Shown here piece after piece: positions 7,654-14,139 of a stretch of 64,000 nucleotides of DNA. Under the pieces are notes generated by a model, which saw nothing but the letters and a program-made list of their open reading frames with translations, had not been told where the DNA came from and searched no databases. The stretch is from Phycisphaerae bacterium (GTDB lineage Bacteria; Planctomycetota; Phycisphaerae; Phycisphaerales; SM1A02): positions 1-64,000 of the forward strand of contig JAEUIU010000020.1 in the NCBI GenBank assembly GCA_016795065.1. Direction: 5' to 3'. The position numbers and the translations under genes were made by a program. Each line of letters starts with the position of its first letter. Within the stretch, counting starts at the first letter, position 1.

Positions 7654-8643
7654 ATGCAACGGCCCGGATACAGCGCGACCTATGTGCTCGATTTCGAGCA
7701 GCCGATCGTCGAGATCGAGAAGCAGATCGACGCCCTTGCCGAGCTTCCCAACGCCGAGCGGTTCGATGCCGAGATCAGGAAGCTGGAAGAAACCCGCAAG
7801 GGCATTCTCGAGAAGACCTACGCATCGCTGTCGGCGTGGCAAACCGTGCGCGTCGCCCGCCATCCGCTCCGGCCGCAGACCTCTGACTACATCCAGCACA
7901 TGTGTCGCGACTTCTGCGAGCTGCATGGCGACCGGCGCTTCGGGGACGACCCGGCGATCATCACCGGATTCGGCCGGATCGGATCGATGAAGGCCCTGAT
8001 CATTGGCCAGCAGAAGGGCAAGACCGTCGCCGAGAAGGTCGCCTGCCACTTCGGTTGTGCCCACCCCGAGGGATACCGCAAGGCCCTCCTGAAGATGAAG
8101 CTCGCCGAGAAGTTCGGCCTCCCGATCGTCACCTTCGTTGACACGCTCGGCGCCTATCCGGGCATCGGCAGTGAGCAGCGTGGTCAGGCCCAGGCCATCG
8201 CCGAGAACCTCTTTGAAATGAGCCGGCTCAGGACCCCAATCGTCAGCGTGGTCATCGGCGAGGGCGGCTCTGGCGGGGCCCTCGGCATCGCGGTCGCCGA
8301 TCGGGTGGCCATGCTCGAACACGCCTGGTACTCGGTCATTAGCCCCGAGGGGTGCGCGGCGATCCTCTGGAAGGAAGCCAACGAGCAGACCAACACCCGG
8401 GCGGCCGAGCAGTTGGCTCTGACCGCACGGCGGAATCTCGAGAACGGCCTCATCGACGACGTCATCACCGAACCAGTCGGTGGGGCCCATCGCGACCCGA
8501 AGGCCACCGCGGAGCGAGTCCAGACCTGGATCCTCGACCGACTCCGCGAGTTGACGAGGATCAACCCCGAGACCCTCGTCCGGCAGCGCTATGAGAAGTT
8601 CAGGGCGATGGGGGCCTTCAGTCGGAAGATCGGATCGACCTGA
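7654..8643 (+). CDS. accA: Acetyl-CoA carboxylase carboxyltransferase subunit alpha
   Basis: AccA (329 residues) is the alpha half of the carboxyltransferase that moves the carboxyl group from biotin to acetyl-CoA to make malonyl-CoA, the first step of fatty acid synthesis. The N-terminal segment LDFEQPIVEIEKQIDAL, the crotonase-type core (GFGRIGSMKALIIGQQKGK, VTFVDTLGAYPGIGSEQRGQ) and the oxyanion region GEGGSGGALGIAVADRV are all present. Full length. No accD or accBC lies nearby. The ATG at 7654 matches the family N-terminus and sits 8 nt after a TATACT box. Confidence 0.96.
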   Translation: MQRPGYSATYVLDFEQPIVEIEKQIDALAELPNAERFDAEIRKLEETRKGILEKTYASLSAWQTVRVARHPLRPQTSDYIQHMCRDFCELHGDRRFGDDPAIITGFGRIGSMKALIIGQQKGKTVAEKVACHFGCAHPEGYRKALLKMKLAEKFGLPIVTFVDTLGAYPGIGSEQRGQAQAIAENLFEMSRLRTPIVSVVIGEGGSGGALGIAVADRVAMLEHAWYSVISPEGCAAILWKEANEQTNTRAAEQLALTARRNLENGLIDDVITEPVGGAHRDPKATAERVQTWILDRLRELTRINPETLVRQRYEKFRAMGAFSRKIGST

Positions 8644-8694
8644 GCGAGGACGAGCTGTATCGCGCGGGGCATCGCGCGGATTGTGCGGCTGCCT

Positions 8695-8723
8695 TTGACG
8701 GGAGCCCCTTTTTCCGCTATTCT
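8695..8723 (+). promoter_or_regulatory. Sigma70-type promoter of the DksA-like gene
   Basis: TTGACG (8695-8700) and TATTCT (8718-8723) are separated by exactly 17 nt. The expected transcription start near 8730 gives a leader of about 130 nt. This argues that coding starts downstream and not at the far upstream end of the open frame. Confidence 0.7.
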
Positions 8724-8859
8724 TCGCCACCTTTTCTACGCGGAATTCAGGCAGGAAGTGGGTCGGAAGTCACTTTCCGGTCACCTGCACCCCTCCCCCG
8801 AGGGATTCCTGACGCCCGCGATTGAAGAATCCGCGACCGCGGCGAGAGGTTGTCCAACT

Positions 8860-10158
8860 TTGGCGAAGAGCCCAGCGTCAAGCTCGAAGGCAGACCCCCA
8901 GACTAGCAAGGTGAAGGGGTCTCATTCGGCGCGCGCCGGAGCCTCGAAGCCCGGCACCTCGAGCGCAAAGGCTGCTCCCGCAAAGGGATCCGCCAAGGCC
9001 CCGGCTGCGAAGGCCGCCTCTCCCAAGGCCACTCCCCCGAAGGTCGCTCCCAAGGCTGCTGACGCAAAGAAGTCCGCGCCCCTGAAAGCCCAAGCTGGCA
9101 AGGCCCCGGCGGCCGCAAAGGCTACCCCAACCAAGCCGGCCACCGGCTCGAAGGCCCCTGCGAAGGGTGCCGACAAGAGTGCCGAGAAGAGCGCCAAGAC
9201 GTCGAGTCTGCCTGCCCACAATGCCAACCTAAACGGCAAGCTGAACGCTGCCGACAAGGGTGACGGGAAGAAGAGCGGGAAGGGCTCTCCCGCGGGAAGC
9301 CCGGGAGCGAATGCTCCAACCGCGGCCGCTGGAAAGTCGGGGCTCGGAAAGCCCGTCGCGGTTCCGACCGTAAAGTCGAAGGCCGCGCCCGTGCCGACTG
9401 GCAAGGGCGGGAAGGGCACCGCCAAGGCGGATGGCAAGCCAGACGCCAAAGCCGGCCTGAAGGACTCCTCCAAGGACAACAAGTCAGCAGGCAAGTCGAA
9501 GGGTGGAGCGGAGAACGCTGCGGCCGAGAAGGCCAAGCCCGCACCTGCGGCTTCCAAGTCGAAGTCCTCACCGAAGAAGAAGGGCCCCATTGACCTTGCG
9601 ACCGCGAAATCGGTCGCCGCTGTTGCCGCTGCCTCGCAGGCCGACAGCTCTGGCTACGTGATCATCAACGGTCGTCGCGTGCGGATGATCTCGACCAAGG
9701 GCCTCCCGGCGCCAAGGCGGACCAAGGTCGTTGTCGAAAAGGAAGTCGAGAAGCACGAGCCGCCGATCTCGTCGATCAAGACCAAGATGGTCAAGAAGGA
9801 GCTCGACGAGTACAAGGCGCTTCTCATGCTGAAGCGGCGCCAGCTCATCGGGATGCTTCACGGGATGGAAGACGAGGCGCTCCGCTCCAGCGGCGGCAAC
9901 CTCTCGACCATGCCGTTGCACATGGCCGACATCGGAACCGACACCTTCGACCAGGACTTCACCCTCGGGATGGCCGAAACCGAACGGGCCCTGCTCGATG
10001 AGATCGATGCCGCCCTGAAGCGCATCGACAACAAGACCTACGGCGTCTGCCAGCTCAGCGGGAAGCCGATTCCGAAGACCCGACTCGAGGCCAAGCCTTG
10101 GGCGAAGTATTCGATCGAAGCGGCGAAACTCATGGAGCGTGGTAACGGTAGCCGGTAG
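8860..10158 (+). CDS. Histone-H1-like Lys/Ala/Pro tail fused to a zinc-less DksA/TraR-like domain
   Basis: With a TTG start at 8860 (GAGAGG 10 nt upstream and a promoter at 8695-8723) the protein has 432 residues. Residues 1-240 are low-complexity Lys, Ala, Pro, Ser and Gly in repeats such as KAPAAKAASPKATPPK, resembling H1/AlgP-type DNA-binding tails. Residues about 305-432 are a DksA/TraR-like coiled coil and C-terminal region: ELDEYKALLMLKRRQL, then DEIDAALKRIDNKTYGVCQL and TRLEAKPWAKYSIEAA. DksA normally binds the RNA polymerase secondary channel and modulates ppGpp-dependent initiation. Here the zinc finger is degenerate: only Cys397 remains, and the other positions are Ser and Ala. A nucleoid or polymerase-associated role is inference. 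The exact start is uncertain. Confidence 0.8.
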   Translation: MAKSPASSSKADPQTSKVKGSHSARAGASKPGTSSAKAAPAKGSAKAPAAKAASPKATPPKVAPKAADAKKSAPLKAQAGKAPAAAKATPTKPATGSKAPAKGADKSAEKSAKTSSLPAHNANLNGKLNAADKGDGKKSGKGSPAGSPGANAPTAAAGKSGLGKPVAVPTVKSKAAPVPTGKGGKGTAKADGKPDAKAGLKDSSKDNKSAGKSKGGAENAAAEKAKPAPAASKSKSSPKKKGPIDLATAKSVAAVAAASQADSSGYVIINGRRVRMISTKGLPAPRRTKVVVEKEVEKHEPPISSIKTKMVKKELDEYKALLMLKRRQLIGMLHGMEDEALRSSGGNLSTMPLHMADIGTDTFDQDFTLGMAETERALLDEIDAALKRIDNKTYGVCQLSGKPIPKTRLEAKPWAKYSIEAAKLMERGNGSR

Positions 10159-10173
10159 GCTGAGTCGTCAACA

Positions 10174-10190
10174 CGGATCGTGTCGATCCG
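10174..10190. repeat. Short inverted repeat after the DksA-like gene
   Basis: CGGATCG-TGT-CGATCCG is a 7-bp perfect dyad 15 nt after the stop. It lacks a T-tract and could be a weak terminator or an operator in the lspA promoter region. Confidence 0.4.
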
Positions 10191-10204
10191 ACAACCGATT
10201 TCCC

Positions 10205-10210
10205 TATAGT
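10205..10210 (+). promoter_or_regulatory. Candidate -10 box (TATAGT) for lspA
   Basis: TATAGT lies 52 nt upstream of the lspA ATG. No good -35 hexamer is visible; the dyad at 10174-10190 occupies that position. Confidence 0.4.
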
Positions 10211-10262
10211 CCGAACGACTTCGCCCCGGGCGGCCGGGAGCAACGCACGCCGGCAGTTGTCC

Positions 10263-10958
10263 ATGAGCGAGGCCCCACACCAGAACACGGACGCCGGCTC
10301 GGGCGCACCGGAGGCGTCCGTCGGCCACGGCATCGCAGGGCGGTCGCTTGCGGCGTGGGCTCTTCTTCTCACAGTCGTGGCGATCGGACTTGTGGGCGAC
10401 CTCATTAGCAAGTCGTGGGCGTTCAAGAACGTCGCTGGCAAGCCGGTCACGCTGGTCTACGAGGAGGTCGTCGGCAACCCGAGATACCCGTTGCCCTTTC
10501 ACGAGGGCGTTCGGGCGCTTCCCGCTGACCTTCTGGACTTCAGGCTGGTCCTCAACCATGGCGCGGTGTTCGGCGTTGGCCAGAACCGCCAGCGGATCTT
10601 CATCGGCTTCACCATCATCGCCGCGATGGTGGCGGTCGGGTTCTTCGCCCGTTGGACGAAGGCGAATGCGCGGCTGGCCCACATCGCAATCGGCATGATC
10701 CTCGCAGGCGGCCTCGGCAATCTCTACGATCGCCTCACGGTAGGTGCGGTGCGCGACTTCCTGCACATGCTGCCGCGATGGGACCTGCCATGGGGATGGA
10801 AGTGGTGGAACAATCCGACGAACGAGGTCTTCCCGTGGATCTTTAACGTCGCCGACGTGCTGCTGCTGGCGGGCATGGCCCTCTTCATGATCTACGCCTA
10901 CCGGCGTGATCACCACGAGGACAGTGCGACGAATCGCGGCGTGGACAGCACGGGCTAA
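10263..10958 (+). CDS. lspA: Lipoprotein signal peptidase (signal peptidase II)
   Basis: LspA (231 residues) is the inner-membrane aspartyl protease that removes signal peptides from prolipoproteins, such as the lipoproteins at 2360, 42832 and 51718. Four hydrophobic segments are visible (about 30-46, 110-130, 138-155, 192-212). The catalytic Asp residues fall in VRDFL (Asp165) and FNVADVL (Asp198), with the conserved GNLYDR at 152-157. A roughly 25-residue insert precedes the LNHG motif, as in several planctomycete homologues. The N-terminus is extended by about 28 polar residues. The 3' end overlaps the convergent truB gene by 4 nt. Confidence 0.93.
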   Translation: MSEAPHQNTDAGSGAPEASVGHGIAGRSLAAWALLLTVVAIGLVGDLISKSWAFKNVAGKPVTLVYEEVVGNPRYPLPFHEGVRALPADLLDFRLVLNHGAVFGVGQNRQRIFIGFTIIAAMVAVGFFARWTKANARLAHIAIGMILAGGLGNLYDRLTVGAVRDFLHMLPRWDLPWGWKWWNNPTNEVFPWIFNVADVLLLAGMALFMIYAYRRDHHEDSATNRGVDSTG

Positions 10959-11908: not shown

Positions 11909-11983
11909 CGGGCTATAGCGCAGTTTGGCTAGCGCGCTTGACTGGGGGTCAAGAGGTCGTGGGTTCAAATCCCGCTAGCCCGA
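11909..11983 (+). tRNA. tRNA-Pro (anticodon GGG)
   Basis: Acceptor CGGGCTA pairs with TAGCCCG, discriminator A. Anticodon stem CTTGA/TCAAG has the loop CTGGGGG, and the T-arm is GTGGG-TTCAAAT-CCCGC. It lies 56 nt after tRNA-Ser with no separate promoter seen, so the two are probably co-transcribed. Its 3' end is partly duplicated at 12202-12285. Confidence 0.95.
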
Positions 11984-12045
11984 TTGAAAGCACCGGGCGG
12001 AAGGCAAGGCCCTTCCGCCCGGTGCTTGCAATCGGTCTACGTGCC
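11963..12045 (+). repeat. Direct repeat copy 1: tRNA-Pro 3' end plus hairpin
   Basis: This copy begins at the tRNA-Pro T-loop and runs through the acceptor end, a 17-bp hairpin and the sequence CAATCGGTCTACGTGCC. It is matched by copy 2 at 12202-12285 with a handful of differences. Confidence 0.85.
11988..12027 (+). terminator. Hairpin downstream of tRNA-Pro (copy 1)
   Basis: A perfect 17-bp stem (11988-12004 with 12011-12027) with a 6-nt loop. Only mixed sequence follows, no T-tract, so it may be a processing or terminator hairpin. Confidence 0.6.
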
Positions 12046-12201
12046 ACGGGCTGCGCCCGCGTCACGGTGTCTCGCCCTGAGCCGGCCCGCGGCGCTTCGG
12101 CTGCGCCTGCGCGGCGCGTGCCGTCTCATGGCGATCCACGCGGTCTTGTCGTCGCCGCGGGTGGGCGGTGGCGGCGTCGCGCGGCGTGGGGCGACCGCGG
12201 C

Positions 12202-12285
12202 GTTCAAATCCCGCTGGGCCCGATTCAAAGCACCAGGCGGAAGGCAAGGCCCTTCCTCCTGGTGCTTTCAATCGGTTTACGTCCC
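12202..12285 (+). repeat. Direct repeat copy 2: truncated tRNA-Pro 3' end plus hairpin
   Basis: GTTCAAATCCCGCTGGGCCCGA reproduces the T-loop and 3' acceptor of tRNA-Pro, followed by the same hairpin and flank as copy 1. No 5' tRNA half is present in the 156-nt GC-rich spacer (12046-12201), so this is a tRNA fragment. Confidence 0.85.
12227..12268 (+). terminator. Hairpin of repeat copy 2
   Basis: The 18-bp stem (12227-12244 with 12251-12268) shows one covarying pair relative to copy 1 (G-C to A-T) and one mismatch. It ends in TTTC. Confidence 0.6.
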
Positions 12286-12794: not shown

Positions 12795-13973
12795 TCAGTC
12801 GCAATTCTCAGTCACATGCAAGGCGAAGTTGCCCCTTGCGCCTTGGTAGCCGGCGACGCGAATGTAGAACGTCTGACTCGGATCGCTCTGGAAGGAGAGT
12901 TCACTCTTTCGATTGAGCGCCCCGATCTGGCAGGTTGCATGGGCGAAATCGTCGTTGCATCCGACGTACTGGCCGAGGCAGCCATTGGGGCCGGCCTTCC
13001 AGACCGAGATCACGGTGTCGAAGTCGGTGTCGGGGTTGCACGTCGAGACGGTGATCGAGCCGCTGCTAAAGGGGCAGGTCGAGACCACCTTGATCCATTC
13101 GCAGACCGTGTCTCCGGACGCGCAGGGCGAGATGTCGGTATCGGGGTCGTTGTCCAGCGTCGTTCCGTAGTATGTTTCGCCCGCGCTTGCGATCACGCTG
13201 AGGTCTGCGGCGGTCTCGCAGGTCTGCCCGATCGAGGTGAACTCGAGATTCAGCACGCCCTCGCCGCTGAATCCGTCGTAGCCGCCGACGCGGAGCTTGT
13301 ATTCCGAGCCAGGGAGGACATTGAAGCTGATTTCCGAGGTGAGCCCGCACGCGGGATTGTCGTCGTTGCAGGCGATGACGGTGGTGAGCGAGAAACTCGC
13401 GCTCGGGCAGCCGGCAGGCTGGGAGGGAAACGCATAGGCATACGCTGCGAGCCGCGTGTCCCAGCTCGTGCCGCAGGTCGAGGCCGTCAGCGTTCCGAAG
13501 CCGATCGGCGTGATCGTGTACCAGACGTCGGACTCAATCGAGTCATAGCCGAACTGAATGCAACTGCTGCCAGGTGTGAACGGGGGTCCTTGGTCGTTGG
13601 CGCCAACGGTGCAGAAGGGCGTCTGGCCCTCGGCGATCGGAAGCGGGTTCTCGCAGAGGTCGTTCGAAGGAACCGAGAAGCAGGGGCCCCAGCCTCCAAG
13701 CAAGATGGCCAGGTCGGAGGCGTCGGTGCTTCCGGAGCCGTCGAGGTCGCCTGTCGCTTCGCCCCAGCCGCCCAGCAGTTGGGCCAGGTCGGCTCCGTCG
13801 ATGTTGCCCGAGCTATCGAAGTCGCCGGGGCATCCGCATGAGGCTCCCGCGACACCGCCTCCCGCTGGCTTGGCGCGCTGGGATCTCCCCTCGGCGGGGG
13901 TGAGGGCGAACGCGGAAGCGAGAACGATGGAGGTGAGGGTGAGCATGGGTAGCGACGACGTGTAGAGGTTCAT
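12795..13973 (-). CDS. Secreted dockerin-like/PPC-like repeat protein
   Basis: This 392-residue exported protein has a signal peptide (hydrophobic core LTLTSIVLASAFAL). Two EF-hand dockerin-like repeats follow (FDSSGNIDGADLAQLLGGWG and LDGSGSTDASDLAILLGGWG, residues about 52-95). Two PPC-like beta domains come next, each with DxWYxItP or CEWIKV-type starts, CND-D motifs and paired cysteines. Dockerin-like repeats are frequent at the termini of planctomycete secreted proteins, but their partner is unknown here because no cohesin is seen. Placement at the N-terminus is less usual. The open frame extends upstream, but ATG 13973 gives the signal peptide. No Shine-Dalgarno; a hairpin lies just upstream. 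Confidence 0.85.
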   Translation of the reverse strand: MNLYTSSLPMLTLTSIVLASAFALTPAEGRSQRAKPAGGGVAGASCGCPGDFDSSGNIDGADLAQLLGGWGEATGDLDGSGSTDASDLAILLGGWGPCFSVPSNDLCENPLPIAEGQTPFCTVGANDQGPPFTPGSSCIQFGYDSIESDVWYTITPIGFGTLTASTCGTSWDTRLAAYAYAFPSQPAGCPSASFSLTTVIACNDDNPACGLTSEISFNVLPGSEYKLRVGGYDGFSGEGVLNLEFTSIGQTCETAADLSVIASAGETYYGTTLDNDPDTDISPCASGDTVCEWIKVVSTCPFSSGSITVSTCNPDTDFDTVISVWKAGPNGCLGQYVGCNDDFAHATCQIGALNRKSELSFQSDPSQTFYIRVAGYQGARGNFALHVTENCD

Positions 13974-13979
13974 GTGAGG

Positions 13980-14004
13980 TGGCAGGCGACGAGAAGGCCT
14001 GCCA
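13980..14004 (-). repeat. Hairpin in the leader of the dockerin/PPC gene
   Basis: TGGCAGGC and GCCTGCCA with a 9-nt loop lie 7-31 nt upstream of the start codon, where a ribosome would bind. Confidence 0.5.
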
Positions 14005-14139
14005 AGGTCCACACCCCCACGGACGCATTGCCTGCCGCAAGAGCGCAACGAATGTGGCGAAATGGAAGGGTTGGGTTCGAGGCGACGCCGGCTGCATCCG
14101 CAACACGCGCTCATTCTTGGCCATGTCAGCCGACGGGAC

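Follow-up and report, generated by a model that had tools for sequence, protein, structure and literature searches.

DksA is best understood as a partner of ppGpp, and four-cysteine (C4) zinc ligands are typical of the DksA/TraR superfamily, although not universal. The closest described fusion of a DksA domain with a histone-H1-like part is DdbA of Streptomyces, for which Aldridge et al. (2013) is said to be the original paper. DdbA (SCO2075) of Streptomyces coelicolor has an H1-like N-terminus and a DksA C-terminus and is described as DNA binding; its loss is reported to affect spore nucleoid compaction as well as resistance to osmotic and oxidative stress (PMC9043899, PMC11942623). A chlamydial protein also named DdbA (CTL0322, PMC8343073) is separate and should not be mixed up with it.

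Both parts of such a fusion have further precedents. The KPAA-type tail of AlgP is disordered, DNA-binding and nucleoid-associated, and AlgP is also found with polyphosphate granules (PMC9239181). The zinc-free DksA2 of P. aeruginosa is functional and still classed as a DksA (PMC9213440). Escherichia coli DksA contacts ppGpp through R91, K98, K139, L95 and R129, and the exchanges K98A or R129A abolish site 2 but leave polymerase binding (PMC7676912).

An H1-like tail and a DksA-type domain are encoded in one frame

We analyzed a window, i.e., the whole stretch of 64,000 nucleotides, from a Phycisphaerae bacterium (Planctomycetota), in which positions 8683–10158 of the plus strand form a single open frame without a stop codon, with tail, linker and domain all in frame. 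The features at its 5' end and its main parts are:

8695–8723, plus strand: sigma-70-type promoter TTGACG-N17-TATTCT (motif scan, conserved in relatives)
8844–8849, plus strand: probable ribosome-binding site GAGAGG (from sequence, 10 nt 5' of TTG 8860)
8860–10158, plus strand: coding sequence of the fusion protein, 432 aa, TTG start (open frame, relatives' N-termini, codon-position GC)
8860–9567, plus strand: Lys/Ala/Ser/Gly/Pro-rich, histone-H1-like N-terminal tail, 236 aa (composition, charge, equivalents in relatives)
9652–9696, plus strand: conserved linker motif GYVIINGRRVRMIST (predicted β-hairpin)
9781–10155, plus strand: DksA/TraR-type domain, 125 aa (PF01258, TIGR02890 and TIGR02420 matches, AlphaFold2, PDB comparison)

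The start codon of the fusion gene is most likely TTG 8860, which we favor because GAGAGG lies 10 nt upstream, because proteins of relatives start with [M/V/L]-A-K/T at the equivalent place, and because GC by codon position is 0.60/0.65/0.76 in 8860–9567, a coding pattern, compared with 0.64/0.56/0.61 in 8683–8859, where this pattern is missing. Starts at GTG 8683 or at 8695 were dropped in view of the relatives' N-termini and codon-position GC. A preliminary description of this DNA had let its interval begin at 8695, which is the first base of the promoter and not of the gene. The product from TTG 8860 has 432 residues, 43.7 kDa and a pI of 10.2, and consists of a 236-residue N-terminal tail, a 71-residue linker and a 125-residue C-terminal DksA/TraR-type domain.

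TTGACG-N17-TATTCT was the only promoter-like site in 8500–10500, where shuffled sequences average 0.1 sites. We assessed its conservation in the 220 nt 5' of the start in 11 relatives, whose start codons were picked by eye from the N-terminal pattern, with dinucleotide shuffles as control. The window and all 11 relatives have a TTG-type/N17/TAnnnT box with a 17-nt spacer. Their summed score was 107 compared with 28 ± 11 in shuffles, none of 300 shuffles scoring as high; single relatives are weak when taken alone, e.g., L033, for which 30 of 200 shuffles were equally good. These sequence comparisons support a promoter conserved among relatives. The promoter named in the preliminary description thus stands, rare in shuffles and with a box of its type in 11 of 11 relatives, but not the substantial expression read from it, as a promoter match by itself does not imply an expression level.

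The C-terminal domain is predicted to have a DksA fold and retains one of four zinc ligands

The domain matched PF01258 above the gathering score (32.5 bits; domain cut-off 24.9). DksA and YteA models matched with E values from 1e-15 to 3e-21, all under their equivalog or subfamily cut-offs: the best-scoring NCBIfam model, TIGR02890 (YteA), gave 76 bits against a family cut-off of 134.4, and scores for RNA polymerase-binding DksA equivalogs were not reached with TIGR02420 (58 bits, cut-off 115.5) or NF033459 (61 bits, cut-off 105). A PDB sequence search found Chlamydia trachomatis Dks (6ptg, 3e-16) as the best match, followed by P. aeruginosa DksA2 (4ijj).

AlphaFold2, run with an alignment of 61 sequences, produced a DksA fold (pLDDT 82) with a coiled-coil hairpin, a small globular domain and a C-terminal helix, as in the DksA/TraR superfamily; the tip was the least certain part. 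The best eight Foldseek rows were all DksA entries (TM 0.83 for 4ijj, 0.85 for 1tjl). VIA-align ranked 4ijj (Z = 14.1), E. coli DksA (1tjl, 13.8) and the RNA-polymerase complexes 7khi (13.2) and 5vsw (12.8) high, with unrelated coiled coils appearing only from Z of about 9 down. The fold suggested earlier from the letters was hence confirmed by structure prediction and both structural comparisons. Two sites within the domain need separate mention:

9919–9936, plus strand: coiled-coil tip HMADIG (alignment of 61 sequences)
10048–10122, plus strand: degenerate zinc-finger site with Cys 10048–10050, Ser 10057–10059, Ser 10111–10113 and Ala 10120–10122 (alignment to the four ligand positions)

All 61 sequences agree at five positions of the tip pattern HMADxGxD (H, A, D, G and the final D). 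The Asp of HMAD pairs with D74 of E. coli DksA in hhalign and is off by two columns in MAFFT.

Numbered within the domain, the zinc ligand positions read C90, S93, S111 and A114, so that one of four Cys is left, as had been claimed, and the C4 set is incomplete. Among 150 distinct Phycisphaerae loci, 146 have two Cys or fewer, one has three and three have four; the four loci with three or four Cys are all tail-less. A Balneolota group contributed 28 sequences with one Cys (CTSA) and no tail, and Planctomycetota outside Phycisphaerae mostly have four Cys, with or without a tail.

Most ppGpp-contacting residues are replaced in a genome without a detected RelA/SpoT domain

The site-2 positions R91, L95, K98, R129 and K139 of E. 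coli DksA read T, L, E, K and A in the window protein, i.e., the contact set is not retained; residues 79–143 of the E. coli sequence used match the PDB alignment. Part of the ppGpp site thus persists, with L95 unchanged and R129 exchanged conservatively for Lys. Among the first 48 rows of the alignment, which comprise 47 planctomycete sequences and one from the Balneolota group, 41 have Glu where E. coli has K98.

No RelA_SpoT domain was detected in the source genome, which is 95% complete, nor in 143 of 150 Phycisphaerae genomes, while 11 of 14 control genomes contained one. Seven Phycisphaerae genomes have a RelA/SpoT-type domain; these matches sit in open frames no longer than 371 aa, which is too short for a long RSH. 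This agrees with the reported absence of long RSHs from the PVC group (PMC3153485). The source genome has one PF01258 protein only, with no second found, together with one member of the GreA/GreB family and two HU-type genes.

The basic tail and a conserved linker motif

The tail consists of 26% Ala, 20% Lys, 13% Ser, 11% Gly and 11% Pro, with a pI of 10.5 and a net charge of about +35. At roughly double the length of the DksA domain, it accounts for almost the entire charge of the protein, the 125-aa domain being near-neutral. Lys makes up 15–20% of the tail over 150 aa; elsewhere in the six frames of the window no 150-aa stretch exceeds 10%, which rules out chance low complexity as the origin of the tail. 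A frameshift or a separate gene for the tail was ruled out as well, since it is in frame here and in relatives. Two statements of the preliminary description thereby found support, i.e., an H1-like arm of about 240 residues ahead of the DksA domain (236 aa here, N-terminal as its body text said) and a common frame of arm and domain, seen in this DNA as well as in 121 of 150 Phycisphaerae loci. Tail and linker matched nothing significant in Pfam.

In several relatives (L056–L058, L149, L224) the DksA domain is followed by a short, acidic tail of Asp and Glu, e.g., EEDEEDDADEEDFLDEDEGDRDD in L149, in addition to a basic N-terminus. From their sequences, the two ends of these proteins could therefore bind each other.

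The linker contains GYVxINGRRVRxIS, found 91–99 residues N-terminal of the tip in 24 distinct sequences that carry the full pattern, i.e., the window protein and its closest kin. AlphaFold2 modeled it as a small hairpin with a modest pLDDT of about 62–68. This conserved hairpin motif is apparently new; that it touches nucleic acid or RNA polymerase would be guesswork.

Fusion and zinc loss are ordinary in Phycisphaerae

Homologues were present in 144 of 150 Phycisphaerae genomes, and 176 of 199 genomes sampled across Planctomycetota matched the family profile. We scored a tail as present wherever 60 residues in a row contained no less than 15% Lys and no less than 60% K/A/P/S/T/G. By this definition, 121 of 150 distinct Phycisphaerae loci have one, and tail-less members occur within the class too; such fractions are approximations, because some of the loci stem from an even draw and others from a search for close relatives. 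Lys-rich tails recur in other planctomycete classes, where their counts are biased upward because long frames were picked there deliberately. The survey of fusion and Cys pattern that had been suggested thus gave 121 of 150 loci with a tail and 146 of 150 without a zinc site. The singularity implied by the preliminary description is not upheld, fusion and zinc loss being ordinary in Phycisphaerae and each known elsewhere. On a poorly resolved domain tree we counted at least 18 tail changes and at least seven zinc changes, and coupling of tail gain to zinc loss was unsupported on this tree because there were too few independent pairs.

Upstream of the fusion gene lies accA. The downstream neighbor is:

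10257–10958, plus strand: lspA, lipoprotein signal peptidase (PF01252, E 2e-27)

lspA follows in 108 of 145 Phycisphaerae loci and in 25 of 28 loci of the Balneolota group (L083–L110), where a tail-less, one-Cys DksA relative sits directly 5' of it. The dksA–lspA pairing therefore spans phyla and may be an old arrangement. SCO2075 of Streptomyces presumably also adjoins lspA, as the fusion gene does here.

We noted two further features of the window. The 3' end of a tRNA-Pro gene and the hairpin following it (11909–12040; GAAAGCACC...GGCGGAAGGCAAGGCCCTTCC...GGTGCTT...AATCGGT) are repeated about 240 nt downstream (12200–12285) without a full tRNA, which is a partial duplication. An open reading frame on the minus strand (12795–14114) contains paired DFDSSGNIDGADLAQLLGGWG / DLDGSGSTDASDLAILLGGWG repeats that, judged by eye, resemble dockerin-type calcium-binding repeats, which are common in planctomycete surface proteins.

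Proposed function and alternatives

Based on the computed features, i.e., frame, fold, Cys loss, replaced ppGpp residues, undetected RelA/SpoT domain and conserved promoter, we propose that the fusion is rather probably a DNA-tethered DksA-type secondary-channel factor that is independent of zinc and ppGpp. This agrees with the DNA-tethered polymerase regulator suggested in the preliminary description, for which DdbA is a studied precedent. By analogy with DdbA, DksA2 and AlgP it would bind both DNA and RNA polymerase, and a regulatory effect is inferred. The folded C-terminal domain would dock at the secondary-channel rim of RNA polymerase, which would place its coiled-coil tip (HMADxG) close to the active site and could alter promoter-complex stability. 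The disordered Lys/Ala/Pro arm would bind DNA irrespective of sequence and hold the factor at high concentration on the nucleoid, and may contribute to DNA compaction. As the zinc ligands and most ppGpp-contacting side chains are gone, the protein should act free of zinc/thiol sensing and of ppGpp, and its output would be set by its own amount and by nucleoid state. Tail-less members in the same class indicate that tethering is not essential everywhere.

It is conceivable, although we hold it to be rather unlikely, that DksA of Phycisphaerae, a class mostly without ppGpp synthetases, was rebuilt as a chromatin-coupled transcription factor, in which tethering by the H1-like arm and the lineage-specific Arg hairpin GYVxINGRRVRxIS, as a possible contact to RNA polymerase or nucleic acid, would replace ppGpp and zinc input and nucleoid state would set global transcription.

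The length and charge of the arm, together with the altered nucleoid compaction described upon loss of DdbA in Streptomyces, would also suit a mainly nucleoid-compacting H1-like protein whose DksA domain serves to dock or dimerise and does not regulate transcription. We give this only a small chance: conservation is much stronger in the DksA domain, with its invariant tip, than in the arm, tail-less versions occur, and the genome already has two HU-type genes.

Charge and composition cannot tell DNA from other polyanions, and the similar Lys/Ala/Pro tail of AlgP associates with polyphosphate granules (PMC9239181). The arm might thus localise the DksA domain to such granules or to RNA instead of DNA, which we regard as improbable, given that DNA and the nucleoid are targets of the AlgP tail too (PMC9239181) and that DdbA, the nearest fusion, is described as a DNA-binding protein. 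That the arm is a drifting low-complexity extension of little function on an ordinary DksA-family protein, for which the many tail-state changes on the poorly resolved tree and the tail-less members of the class speak, appears just as doubtful, since 121 of 150 Phycisphaerae loci have retained a basic, Lys-rich arm while its sequence turned over, and other planctomycete classes have such tails as well.

Phycisphaerae, with a near-universal DksA-like protein and mostly appearing to lack RelA/SpoT, offer a natural test of how DksA acts without ppGpp. They also offer one of whether a single molecule can both organize the nucleoid and regulate polymerase, which has been proposed for DdbA of Streptomyces.

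Comparison with known systems

The YteA/DksA-like proteins of Firmicutes (TIGR02890) provide the top NCBIfam model; the window protein, however, stays below its cut-off, and YteA lacks the arm. C. trachomatis Dks (6ptg), also from the PVC group, has at least one ligand Cys replaced in its zinc region YGICDVSG, but is a 132-residue construct without a Lys-rich arm. DksA2 of P. aeruginosa (4ijj) is the top structural match and likewise has no four-Cys zinc site. In contrast to the fusion, it lacks an H1-like arm and is a zinc-starvation paralogue beside the zinc-containing DksA1, whereas the window protein is the sole PF01258 protein of its genome. With AlgP/PhaF of Pseudomonas it shares a Lys/Ala/Pro-rich, histone-H1-like tail, which is disordered and DNA-binding in the known cases; here, however, the tail is N-terminal, has no regular KPAA repeat and is fused to a DksA domain.

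The architecture described for DdbA, in which one protein joins a Lys-rich, H1-like N-terminus to a DksA domain, is present here, with the same domain order and both kinds of part. Streptomyces, however, belongs to a different phylum and makes ppGpp, and DdbA is described as acting together with ppGpp. Since an H1-DksA fusion and a zinc-free DksA2 are already known, neither element is new. Our literature search found no paper on a planctomycete H1-DksA fusion, and what is apparently new compared with these systems is that a zinc-free H1-DksA fusion is the usual DksA in a class that mostly lacks RSHs.
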